DNA of 64,000 nucleotides, from positions 24,413-88,412 of IMG/VR virus record IMGVR_UViG_3300032271_000867; one strand, given 5' to 3'. The notes below the pieces were generated by a model. It had not been told where the DNA came from. It did no database searches and was given only the letters and a program-made list of their open reading frames with translations. This DNA is from a virus. Below, in pieces: positions 54,558 through 58,890 of the stretch. The translations under genes were made by a program, and so were the position numbers. Within the stretch, counting starts at the first letter, position 1, and every line of letters starts with the position of its first letter.

Positions 54558-54746
54558 TTACTTTCCTACTACTCGTCCACCACCAAAACCTTCTGAGTTT
54601 TGACGGCCTTGCCTAGCCCATAATCTAATTGAAGGTTTTTCTTTAGATTTAGGGTATTTAATGTAGAGAACCTCTGACGACCTAAATTCTTGTATTAAGC
54701 TATTAGCTGTACGGTTATTAGGCGCCAGAGGTTTTCTATCTAACAT
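54558..54746 (-). CDS. Small unknown basic protein
   Basis: 62 aa: APNNRTANSLIQEFRSSEVL and YIKYPKSKEKPSIRLWARQG, ending in a Gly/Arg-rich GFGGGRVVGK. It overlaps by one base the end of the membrane protein gene upstream. No family recognised. Confidence 0.45.
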   Translation of the reverse strand: MLDRKPLAPNNRTANSLIQEFRSSEVLYIKYPKSKEKPSIRLWARQGRQNSEGFGGGRVVGK

Positions 54747-55093
54747 TACTTAGTTGGTGCGTATGGATCTGGTTGAACACCAGGAGTAACTGGTGCAGTT
54801 GCAGCAACTGAAGGTTGGTCTACTGCCTGAATAGCAACTGACGCTGGATCAGAAGCTCCTTTTAGCTGTAGCGTCTGAGTAAATGCAGCGTTAATTTCTG
54901 CAGAGCTCAACTTTCCATCCTCTAGGAAAGCAATTGACAAAAGACGAATAACTTCAGCTACGGCTAAAATACCGCCTAATGATGCAGAGATAACTGGATT
55001 AACTCCGCTAATGGCTCCAGCACCAATAACGCCGAGAGCATTAGCAACGAAGGTAGCAATAATGCGAAGAAAGACATTACCAAAAATTTTCAT
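54746..55093 (-). CDS. Holin-like membrane protein
   Basis: 115 aa. Two hydrophobic stretches (IIATFVANALGVIGAGAIS and ISASLGGILAVAEVIRLLSI) are followed by a soluble Ala/Pro/Val-rich tail (VAATAPVTPGVQPDPYAPTK). Starts 8 nt behind the endolysin stop. Size and topology fit a phage holin, but no family motif is certain. Holin alternatives are the 54-aa and 124-aa membrane proteins nearby. Confidence 0.55.
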   Translation of the reverse strand: MKIFGNVFLRIIATFVANALGVIGAGAISGVNPVISASLGGILAVAEVIRLLSIAFLEDGKLSSAEINAAFTQTLQLKGASDPASVAIQAVDQPSVAATAPVTPGVQPDPYAPTK

Positions 55094-55101
55094 GATTCTC
55101 C

Positions 55102-55653
55102 TTACGCAGTTGGGGTTTCAGCAGTTGCAACGCCTGGGTGGGCGTGTGCAGTTTGTTGATCAGCGTGAACAACAGGGGTGTGAAGAACAGGTTCTGCAAA
55201 TTTTACAGGGCGACCAAAACCAGTAATCCATTGAGCACCAACAGTATTTACAGTTACGATACCTGGAATAACTTTGCCAGTGTCAGCAGAAACATAGGTT
55301 ACGGTTTTCTTGTGTGGATTAACCGAAATAACCATACCAATGTGGTCAGTGTTGGTGTTACGACCAATACCCTTACCAGATTCCCAGTCAAAAATAACTG
55401 CGTCACCAGGAAGTACGTGGTTAAAATCGGTGTGCCAGGTTTTGTTGTGCAAGCACAAATCACGCATAACGTGGCACGATACAACTACAGGACGAAGACC
55501 TGAGAAGTACGAATAAGCAAGGGCACAGTCATAAAAACCGTGAACACGGTTAGGAAAACCGTGAGTAGTTCCATTTAACCAAGGAAGTTCAGTACGAGGT
55601 TTTCCAAGGAATGATTTGAAATGCTCAATAGCATCGTGTGCAGTAATCGACAT
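55102..55653 (-). CDS. CHAP-type endolysin
   Basis: 183 aa. C43 in GFYDCALAYSYF and H104 in TDHIGMVISV, with PGDAVIFDW between them, are the catalytic residues and fold of CHAP/NlpC-type peptidoglycan hydrolases (amidase or endopeptidase). No clear cell-wall-binding domain; the last 30 residues are a His/Ala/Pro-rich tail (TPVVHADQQTAHAHPGVATA). ATG has AAAGGA upstream. Releases progeny with a neighbouring holin. Confidence 0.85.
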   Translation of the reverse strand: MSITAHDAIEHFKSFLGKPRTELPWLNGTTHGFPNRVHGFYDCALAYSYFSGLRPVVVSCHVMRDLCLHNKTWHTDFNHVLPGDAVIFDWESGKGIGRNTNTDHIGMVISVNPHKKTVTYVSADTGKVIPGIVTVNTVGAQWITGFGRPVKFAEPVLHTPVVHADQQTAHAHPGVATAETPTA

Positions 55654-55687: not shown

Positions 55688-55852
55688 TTATTCATCTTTT
55701 CGCAGTGGAAACGTAATCACCCAAATAAACATGGTGATAACAATTCCCCATCCCACAATTACTTGGGGAGTTCCATCAAGAACAAGCCAAGCAGCACCCA
55801 TACCTAGCAATGTCCAAACCTGGTTAATAATGTCGTTAAAAAATTTTTTCAT
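55688..55852 (-). CDS. 54-aa two-span membrane protein, holin candidate
   Basis: MKKFFNDIINQVWTLLGMGA then AWLVLDGTPQVIVGWGIVIT and MFIWVITFPLRKDE give two membrane spans with a charged tail. Short for most gene finders. Start ATG 55852 overlaps the lectin gene stop by one base. Immediately before the endolysin gene, the classical holin position. Role inferred by size and location. Confidence 0.6.
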   Translation of the reverse strand: MKKFFNDIINQVWTLLGMGAAWLVLDGTPQVIVGWGIVITMFIWVITFPLRKDE

Positions 55853-56571
55853 TATTTTCGCTTTCTAATCATTGATGCGGTAGTAGCGATTTGAGAAACA
55901 ATAACTGTTGCAACTATTACTTTTTGACCTTTTTTACGAGCTTCTGGACTTATTTCTTTCCATCCTATAGAATTAGAGGATGAAAGTTTATGAAATTTTG
56001 GTTCCTGTGACGGTGTTGGTGTTGTTGTCGGCTCTACTAGTGTTGGCGATGGGCTTGGTGTTTGTACTAACTCAGGGGTGGGTGTTCCTACTGTTGCCAC
56101 TGGTGTGGGCATTATTTTTGTGGGTATTTGGGAAGGTGTTGGATTACTTTTGGGAGTTGGGGAGATTAAGGTAGCCTGAATAGTGTAAGCAAGTACTTGG
56201 GAGTATTCAGGACAAGGATTTCCGTAAATAGCAGGATCAGCTGAAATAACTACTGAAGTTTTGCCGTTAATTAAATTAAACAATTTATACATGGTACTAA
56301 ATGACGTTGTACATGTAGGATCTATGTTTAAATTAAAATTATTATCAAAATATGGTTTACCAAAATCTGCCCAAACAACATTTGAAAAAACATATCCTTC
56401 TGGAGCGTCAACTTGCATTGAAATTCCCTCAGTATACATATAAGTAAATTTAGCTGGAGGGTAATAATTAGGGCCAGTATCTTGGCCAAAGGCTGGTATT
56501 ACAGCTAGTAAAGGTGCAAAAGCAAAAAATAGTATAACGATTATTACTGCGATTTTACGCAGTTTATTCAA
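55852..56571 (-). CDS. Secreted SUEL-lectin-like protein with Pro/Thr stalk and membrane anchor
   Basis: 239 aa. Signal peptide: KLRK then a long hydrophobic stretch, ending near AFGQ (30). Residues 45-134 show TEGISMQVDAPEGYVFSNVV, WADFGKP, C87, GKTSVVIS, and YGNPCPEYSQVLAYTIQAT with C120, closely matching the SUEL galactose/rhamnose-binding lectin layout (FASFGTP ... GKxSC ... FGDPCxGxxKxLxV). Then a Pro/Thr/Ser stalk (about 136-192) and a C-terminal membrane span (218-235) followed by RKRK. So it is exported and displayed on the cell surface. It lies in the lysis operon. SUEL call is by motif only. Confidence 0.6.
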   Translation of the reverse strand: MNKLRKIAVIIVILFFAFAPLLAVIPAFGQDTGPNYYPPAKFTYMYTEGISMQVDAPEGYVFSNVVWADFGKPYFDNNFNLNIDPTCTTSFSTMYKLFNLINGKTSVVISADPAIYGNPCPEYSQVLAYTIQATLISPTPKSNPTPSQIPTKIMPTPVATVGTPTPELVQTPSPSPTLVEPTTTPTPSQEPKFHKLSSSNSIGWKEISPEARKKGQKVIVATVIVSQIATTASMIRKRK

Positions 56572-56580
56572 TCAGTCTCC

Positions 56581-56835
56581 TTAAAAAGTAACTCCACCAT
56601 CAGGATAAGGTATAGCAGCTCCTGCTCCTCCACCAACTTTAGAAAATGCCATTTCTTTGACAGCATCTAAATTTGACCCAGTTTCAGTCGCAATATTTGG
56701 TAATCCTACTACTCCTGAAATATACGCAGGATACCCTTTCCAGTACTCTCCAATACCACTATATGGACCTGCTGAATATACTTCGGTATTCATGGCTTGT
56801 CTATAAGGGTCTAATTGACTTGGTTTTGGTATCAT
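56581..56835 (-). CDS. Small unknown protein
   Basis: 84 aa: MIPKPSQLDPYRQAMNTEVY, GEYWKGYPAYISGVVGLPNI and a Gly-rich end. Aromatic and Gly-rich without clear helix; could be a small virion protein. Starts by ATGA overlap with the 23-aa acidic peptide gene. Not recognised. Confidence 0.45.
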   Translation of the reverse strand: MIPKPSQLDPYRQAMNTEVYSAGPYSGIGEYWKGYPAYISGVVGLPNIATETGSNLDAVKEMAFSKVGGGAGAAIPYPDGGVTF

Positions 56836-57649: not shown

Positions 57650-57677
57650 TTTATTGTTTAGTTTAGCAATAATGCAG

Positions 57678-57758
57678 TACTCGAAACGGGACTTGAACCC
57701 GTATGCCCAGGGCGGTTGATTTTAAGTCAACTGTGTATACCGATTCCACCATTCGAGC
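57678..57758 (-). tRNA. tRNA-Leu (anticodon UAA)
   Basis: Minus strand 81 nt. Acceptor arms GCTCGAA and TTCGAGT pair (first pair G-U). The anticodon arm GTTGA-CTTAAAA-TCAAC reads UAA. A long variable arm (CGCCCTGGGCATA) marks class II Leu tRNA, and the T-arm is ACGGG-TTCAAGT-CCCGT. CCA is not encoded. Leu UUA is a favoured codon in this AT-rich DNA, so the gene probably supports late translation. Confidence 0.92.
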
Positions 57759-57764
57759 TTAAAA

Positions 57765-58211
57765 CTAGTCTAGCTCATCAATATAAAGCTCTGTAACATC
57801 TAGACCTTCACTGATAGCTACTCTTCTAAAAAAACTTCGATTAGCATGACAATTAGCACATACTAATTCGCATTTAGCCATTTCAGAAATTACAACATCT
57901 ATATCTTTTGTGTAAGATTTAAAATTTGCTATATTAAATAGTTTAGTTACACCAGGTAAATGATCAAACTGCATTATCCAATAACTGTATTTATTTCCAC
58001 AATCTGCACAAGGATTATTTTCTTTATACTCTCTTACCATTTCTCTAATGGCAGTTTCTAAAGTTTTAGTTCTGACCTTAGTTTTATCAGGTTGATCTTC
58101 TCCTAAATAATAAGAAATAGTACTTTTAGAACAACCTAATTTTGCTTTTATTTGACTATAAGTTAACCCTTGTTCTCTGAGTTCTCTAATTGACTTTTCT
58201 AGTTCAGTCAT
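57765..58211 (-). CDS. HNH endonuclease with N-terminal HTH
   Basis: 148 aa. The first 40 residues are an HTH (LREQGLTYSQIKAKLGCSKS, TISYYL). The HNH core shows C68/C71 (CADC), MQFDH (D83-H84), and CELVCANCHANR (C118/C121/H122). Resembles stand-alone phage nucleases with built-in DNA recognition, often mobile. Situated directly next to tRNA-Leu, a usual landing site for such elements. Confidence 0.85.
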   Translation of the reverse strand: MTELEKSIRELREQGLTYSQIKAKLGCSKSTISYYLGEDQPDKTKVRTKTLETAIREMVREYKENNPCADCGNKYSYWIMQFDHLPGVTKLFNIANFKSYTKDIDVVISEMAKCELVCANCHANRSFFRRVAISEGLDVTELYIDELD

Positions 58212-58213
58212 TA

Positions 58214-58315
58214 TTAAACTCTGACTAGCCTGCGCTTTGCTGGATCAAACATCTTTGGATGTTTTTTACTTGCCTTACCATTATTACGGTCTGAATTACG
58301 GGCACCTTTTGCCAT
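58214..58315 (-). CDS. 33-aa basic peptide
   Basis: MAKGARNSDRNNGKASKKHP then KMFDPAKRRLVRV, very basic. ATG has AAGGAG seven bases upstream, a strong site, and the stop is 2 nt before the HNH ATG. Similar in style to the small basic proteins at 25-26 kb. Too short for family assignment. Confidence 0.55.
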   Translation of the reverse strand: MAKGARNSDRNNGKASKKHPKMFDPAKRRLVRV

Positions 58316-58377
58316 GTTTATTTCTCCTTAATGTTGCAGGAATACACCTGCTACATATAAGTATACAGTAAAAATTG

Positions 58378-58450
58378 CTGACCTACCTGGATTCGAACCA
58401 GGAACCTTAGAGTTAACAGCTCTCTGCGATGCCAATTTCGCCATAGGTCA
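58378..58450 (-). tRNA. tRNA-Asn (anticodon GUU)
   Basis: Minus strand 73 nt. Acceptor TGACCTA/TAGGTCA pairs perfectly; T-arm CCTGG-TTCGAAT-CCAGG; anticodon loop CTGTTAA gives GUU, with four Watson-Crick pairs plus a G-A in the stem. CCA is not encoded. It begins 8 nt behind the endonuclease VII gene. Confidence 0.92.
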
Positions 58451-58458
58451 ATATTAAG

Positions 58459-58890
58459 TTATGAGATATATTCTAGTAGGTTTTTTATGTTTTGTGTACT
58501 ATCTTTTAAAATACCTAACGCAACATTGCATGGAAAACATAGCACACCACGAACACAACTTCCACAAGAAAAACGTTTATTACAGCAAGAATGATCATGA
58601 TCAATGTTAACTGCTTCATTTACTTTACAGGCATGGCAGTTACCCTCGTATAAAGCTAATAACTCATTGTACTTTTCTTCAGTTAGTTTATGTCGTTTCC
58701 AGTTAGTTCTGTAAGTAGAACTCATTTGTACTTTTTCAGCGTATTTTTCAGGATTATCTTTATAATACTGAGAAACATAAGTTGAATGACATTTTTTACA
58801 AATGTTTCTTCGTCCATCTACATATTTTGCACCTTTGGCAAACAATTCTAGATCTTTATCTTCGTTGCATTTATTACACGTTTTTATCAT
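58459..58890 (-). CDS. Recombination endonuclease VII
   Basis: 143 aa. The core is ALYEGNCHACKV (C85/C88), NIDHDH (96-100), VRGVLCFPCNVALG (C118/C121, N122) and a C-terminal helix, the endonuclease VII family (T4 gp49 type) that resolves branched DNA before packaging. An extra N-terminal zinc ribbon is present (C5/C8 and C31/C34). It follows the tmRNA-like RNA and is followed by tRNA-Asn. Confidence 0.88.
   Translation of the reverse strand: MIKTCNKCNEDKDLELFAKGAKYVDGRRNICKKCHSTYVSQYYKDNPEKYAEKVQMSSTYRTNWKRHKLTEEKYNELLALYEGNCHACKVNEAVNIDHDHSCCNKRFSCGSCVRGVLCFPCNVALGILKDSTQNIKNLLEYIS

Follow-up and report, generated by a model that had tools for sequence, protein, structure and literature searches.

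The lectins of family PF02140 (SUEL), which include sea urchin SUL-I, CSL3 and the lectin domain of latrophilin, are the closest described relatives of the protein studied here. In CSL3 the sugar is contacted by Glu7, Tyr27, Asn74, Asp79, Gly83 and Lys86 (PMC3269628). In latrophilin-1, mutation of Glu42 strongly reduces or eliminates binding, and either K120R or K120A is enough by itself to eliminate it (PMC2430599). SUEL domains are also found in exported bacterial proteins, namely RemA of Flavobacterium and surface proteins from metagenome-assembled genomes (MAGs). No phage SUEL protein was found in the open-access literature, most subscription papers being outside the search. Here we describe a gene for a SUEL-head surface protein in a stretch of 64,000 nucleotides (the window), which is part of the 88.4-kb IMG/VR virus record IMGVR_UViG_3300032271_000867. 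The protein has the fold, the core motifs and one Cys pair in common with PF02140 lectins. It differs from them in having no Pfam match, two Cys instead of four disulphides, and replacements at five of the six CSL3 contacts.

Superinfection-exclusion proteins of the Llp kind prevent adsorption to infected cells and to lysed fragments (PMC9586334). Llp of phage T5 and the window protein are both phage-made envelope proteins, and the effect of Llp is the one that we propose for the window protein; in architecture there is no likeness, since Llp is a small lipoprotein that acts on FhuA from the periplasm. Lysis cassettes of actinophages contain holin-like proteins with two transmembrane segments (LysF1a, PMC13056207). 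The 54-residue partner encoded beside the SUEL-head protein likewise has two hydrophobic segments and lies near an endolysin gene. In contrast to these proteins, it shows no holin family match and is also present beside the anchor gene in bacterial genomes.

Phages of the abundant freshwater actinobacteria are known chiefly through metagenomes. The terminase encoded in the window shares about 50% identity with its counterpart in Streptomyces phage BRock, and the virus carries two WhiB genes; this identifies it as an actinophage, and we place its hosts among the freshwater actinobacteria. As judged from sequence profiles and a structure model, the head of the window protein is a SUEL fold. Sequence comparison further makes it a member of a large family of phage proteins, in which heads are exchanged, the anchor is conserved and a small membrane protein is encoded alongside. 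We take this as pointing to a way of surface display by phages that has not been described before.

Architecture and fold of the window protein

The gene, the predicted parts of its product and the adjoining partner gene are as follows.

55852 to 56571, minus strand: SUEL-head surface protein of 239 residues, TTG start, with a Shine-Dalgarno sequence AAGGAG at 56577-56582 and a homolog in locus L093
56482 to 56571, minus strand: signal peptide, residues 1-30 (MNKLRKIAVIIVILFFAFAPLLAVIPAFGQ), hydropathy 3.18
56167 to 56460, minus strand: head of SUEL/rhamnose-binding lectin (RBL) fold, residues about 38-135, assigned from AlphaFold2, Foldseek, profiles and a residue table
55981 to 56166, minus strand: Pro/Thr/Ser stalk, residues 136-197, 62 residues with 16 Pro and 20 Ser/Thr
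55855 to 55980, minus strand: conserved C-terminal anchor, residues 198-239 (ISPEARKKGQKVIVATVIVSQIATTASMIRKRK), assigned from the anchor profile of other phages and an alignment
55688 to 55852, minus strand: partner gene directly downstream, encoding the 54-residue protein with two hydrophobic segments

We regard the TTG start as sound, because an in-frame TGA directly precedes it, AAGGAG lies 5 bases upstream and the N-terminus is 50% identical to the signal peptide of a relative, L084 (MNKLRKYAALFGTLTLLTTPLLISSPAFAQ). The open reading frame (ORF) is a real gene, since the homolog L093, which comes from a different contig, shares 43% identity along the full length and has the same architecture (expectation value, E, 1e-43), and since the window anchor matches, at E 5e-10, an anchor profile built without the window protein. 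A first-pass annotation of this DNA had read 55852-56571 as signal peptide, stalk and terminal RKRK, and ORF reading, hydropathy and composition bear this out. The motifs that it singled out, WADFGKP, GKTSVVIS and YGNPCP, are all found in the protein; the stalk is present as well, at about 62 residues close to the 55 claimed.

The proposal of a SUEL-type lectin domain is confirmed by several comparisons. An AlphaFold2 model of the head, computed on an alignment of 14 phage heads, reached a predicted local distance difference test score (pLDDT) of 90.9 and a predicted template modelling score (pTM) of 0.78. Its top 14 Foldseek matches in the PDB are all SUEL/rhamnose-binding lectins (best E 8.9e-6). 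The comparison of an AlphaFold model with SUEL structures had been set beforehand as the check on which the assignment could fail; the fold is present, and profile similarity was found too. A phmmer search of the PDB with the window protein gave 5h4s, an L-rhamnose-binding lectin, at E 1.1e-6 for the whole sequence (the sum of three repeats, of which the best single domain reaches 0.01) and CSL3 at E 0.002. A profile of the 14 phage heads matches 5h4s at 3e-43, CSL3 at 2e-20 and bacterial RemA at 2e-15. When the window protein and L093 are left out of the profile, it still recovers the window head at E 2e-14 among all ORFs examined. The window protein has no match in Pfam, PF02140 included, and PHROGs, isolate phages and a plain IMG/VR search gave no usable match either. 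Five relatives match PF02140 at E<=0.01, those printed falling under the Pfam cut-off. The four conserved disulphides of SUEL/RBL lectins are absent from the head, and by alignment its two Cys appear to correspond to the loop1-loop2 disulphide.

Anchor, partner gene and exchanged heads

The start of the partner gene overlaps the stop of the lectin gene by 1 nucleotide (TAATG). Relatives of the partner gene were found in at least 594 IMG/VR stretches (594 of 600 matched stretches confirmed). In the 102 loci with a partner gene that were examined, the preceding gene nearly always ends in a common anchor. The anchor profile gives 101 matches among 24,323 ORFs, and of 100 matches in partner-gene loci 96 directly precede the partner gene, some of these loci overlapping and therefore not all being independent. 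The window protein shows both features of the family, a match to the anchor profile and a two-segment membrane gene directly downstream. An alternative gene order is seen in L128 and L139, where an ORF of 151 residues with an endolysin-like beginning lies between anchor and partner gene.

The heads on this anchor are diverse, and many have glycan-binding folds. Pfam recognises PA14 (25), GLEYA (8), fn3 (6) and SUEL (5) among 71 non-redundant members, counts in which a single protein may match several domains; the remaining members carry coiled coils or nameless heads. Three phages whose capsids are 85-89% and terminases 77-80% identical to those of the window carry different heads at the same place. 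The heads exchanged among these close phages include PA14, canonical SUEL and others; anchor and partner gene are recognisable in all three, and a signal peptide in two. Searches of 50,697 phage records with a canonical SUEL head, an anchor and the 62-residue version of the partner gene gave no match, and the window head gave none in these records except one at chance level (E 7).

Pro-rich stalks that carry PA14, GLEYA or SUEL heads resemble adhesins in architecture, and SUEL is present both in bacterial adhesins (RemA, for example) and in exported proteins of MAGs. The head might stick infected cells to neighbouring cells, to particles or to other bacteria, bringing progeny near to new hosts or protecting the cell from grazers. 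The gain for a lytic phage late in infection is not evident, however, and we consider adhesion unlikely, though worth keeping in mind. Adhesion and an accessory role in lysis, which is taken up below, are the main mechanistic rivals to surface display for receptor occlusion.

In the phage loci examined, SUEL heads were found solely on anchor proteins. This bears on whether the protein could be a lectin of the virion or tail that serves adsorption: carbohydrate-binding domains of phages are frequently located in tail proteins, and structural genes lie in the cluster on the same strand. Confinement of the SUEL heads to anchor proteins speaks against a tail protein, as do the signal peptide, the anchor and the positive tail, so that a virion role is very improbable. 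The same features support the earlier proposal of a cell-surface rather than a virion protein.

Candidate -1 frameshifting in split relatives

Programmed frameshifts attach Ig-like domains to the structural proteins of phages. In part of the present family, head and anchor are split between reading frames, and there, too, a frameshift would decide whether the extra domain is attached. The Ig-like domain is added to virion proteins, whereas in the split relatives the anchor would be added to an exported lectin-type protein.

Separate frames were first seen in five loci (L084, L128, L135, L151 and L160); a further scan and a systematic check brought the number to 36 unique phage cases, the other 31 being among L249-L292. 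The anchor is in the -1 frame in all 36. A slippery heptamer of the form X XXY YYZ lies directly before the head stop in 32 of them (CCCAAAA in 18, TTTAAAA in 13, AAAAAAA in 1), and the other four (L285, L286, L288 and L290) carry an in-frame C CCA AAA that ends one codon sooner. Such a heptamer ends 51 of 1,564 unique ORFs of at least 150 residues, split cases included, which by subtraction gives a background of about 1%. Most of the split cases were retrieved by a single query and are mutually related.

When 12 sequences were folded singly, most showed a stem at 5-6 nucleotides past the heptamer; the z-scores ranged from -0.3 to -4.5. A covariation count over fixed columns was negative for this stem, which we think is due to register shifts between the sequences. 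A permutation test that does not depend on register, covering nine arm types, gave p 0.00015; it was designed after the sequences had been seen. From these data, programmed -1 frameshifting that yields soluble and anchored forms is probable in the split relatives. The window gene is a single ORF with no slippery site at its stalk/anchor junction. If the frameshift is real, recoding would serve to switch a lectin between a secreted and an anchored form, an unusual role for it.

Ligand, proposed function and gene neighbourhood

By motif position, the window head has Glu, Phe, Pro, Asn, Glu and Gln at the six CSL3 contact sites. Only the Glu is kept, and the substitutions are Tyr27 to Phe, Asn74 to Pro, Asp79 to Asn, Gly83 to Glu and Lys86 to Gln. 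The nearest relative, L093, has Gln, Phe, Pro, Asn, Gln and Gln. The remaining 12 heads in the set of 14 retain Glu, Tyr, Asp, Gly and Lys. Because the site is kept in these 12 and lost here, other members of the family may bind rhamnose or galactose and the window head probably does not. Galactose or rhamnose of the host wall had been named as the ligand in the first-pass annotation; on these residues we reject both for the window head, which most likely binds something else.

Signal peptide, stalk and anchor together make display on the cell surface very probable. The signal peptide would export the protein, and the C-terminal anchor with its positive tail would keep it at the membrane, so that the SUEL-fold head is presented outside on a flexible Pro/Thr stalk. 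The 54-residue membrane protein would act as a partner, perhaps packed against the anchor. The head would attach to a ligand of the host envelope, probably neither rhamnose nor galactose, and the infected cell and its debris would thereby stop taking up the phage's own or competing particles, in effect like T5 Llp. Heads that turn over quickly while the anchor stays constant are in keeping with a protein that recognises variable surfaces of hosts. Together with the glycan-binding folds and the effect of Llp, this turnover suggests receptor occlusion as a possible purpose, which we advance tentatively. As a whole, the reading of a surface-display protein of the infected actinobacterial cell, whose head binds an envelope ligand to occlude receptors, comes near to being probable without reaching it.

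Several points weigh against this reading. The canonical sugar site is lost in the window head. The anchor segment (residues 217-235) is weakly hydrophobic, with a mean Kyte-Doolittle value of 1.63 over 19 residues where the signal peptide reaches 3.18, and contains Ser, Thr and Gln before RKRK follows. Full-length AlphaFold2 modelling, with two sequences, was too poor to confirm an anchor helix; of the single membrane span described earlier, the hydrophobic segment stands and the helix is not confirmed. Genes of lysis clusters are usually expressed late, which would limit exclusion of early superinfection. Finally, the lectin gene lies beside endolysin and holin genes, a location that would suit a role in lysis as well.

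55102 to 55653, minus strand: CHAP-type endolysin, 183 residues (phrog_21357 endolysin, E 6e-4; CHAP, E 0.003, under the cut-off)
54746 to 55093, minus strand: r1t-like holin candidate, 115 residues (phrog_443 holin, E 0.008, a weak r1t holin match)

The product of 54746-55093 also matches phrog_26427, labelled nuclease, at E 4.6e-18; this label may be wrong, as gene order and the weaker match point to a holin.

In a lysis accessory, the 54-residue protein would act as holin or pinholin, while the lectin on its anchor would grip the wall or regulate lysis, as a spanin-like or lysis-timing device suited to actinobacteria. The adjoining CHAP endolysin and r1t-like holin are in favour of this, as are the two hydrophobic segments of the small protein, which resemble holin-like proteins, and a match of two family members to a profile of Rz-like spanins, which is probably due to coiled coils. 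Neither the lectin nor the 54-residue protein matches a lysis family, or any other family, in PHROG or Pfam. The heads vary far beyond what is expected of a core lysis part. Moreover, candidates for endolysin and holin are present in four phage loci (L089, L090, L092 and L095) that show no pair of anchor and partner gene in the stretch read, and in L097 other genes separate the pair from the endolysin.

The pair is also found in bacteria. Within one family of small actinobacterial genomes, the anchor profile finds 3 of 296 genomes and the partner-gene profile 3 of 201, the same three. A scan of genome contigs with the partner gene found nothing; the profile search over genomes did find copies. 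No phage genes were seen around the pair in these copies, L241 (genome G370), L242 (G409) and L245 (G733). In G370 the pair has thrS on its upstream side and trpD and cytochrome bc genes on its downstream side. We read these neighbours as housekeeping genes, and LysE, PAP2 and hydrolase families were confirmed around the pair. As the Pfam terminase model had not been shown to detect the terminase of this phage, the window's own terminase was used as query; it was absent from all three genomes, and the same search found the terminase in the control phage G002. Among 56 cellular SUEL loci, in contrast to the phage loci, neither anchor nor partner gene was present.

Since no phage or lysis genes were seen nearby, the bacterial copies indicate that the pair can exist away from lysis genes. 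These copies, and the phages with endolysin and holin candidates and no pair, argue against a core role in lysis and weaken the earlier suggestion that the protein aids lysis; a lysis accessory is, in our judgement, a rather unlikely explanation, slightly more so than adhesion.

That bacterial genomes contain the pair suggests exchange with hosts, and it may also hint at an exclusion system on the host side. It is conceivable, and offered with reserve, that freshwater actinophages use a two-gene display in which exchangeable heads of glycan-binding type coat the infected cell, that one part of the family tunes its soluble/anchored ratio by programmed -1 frameshifting, and that the pair has moved between phages and hosts and may serve there to exclude phages. 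If so, this widespread family, with lectin-type heads that change fast on a constant anchor, would record in readable form which surface ligands matter, and could be tested with single domains.

Elsewhere, the region 57677-58890 of the window contains genes for tRNA-Leu and tRNA-Asn. Two short ORFs with endonuclease-like Cys/His patterns (57765-58211 and 58459-58890) adjoin these tRNA genes.
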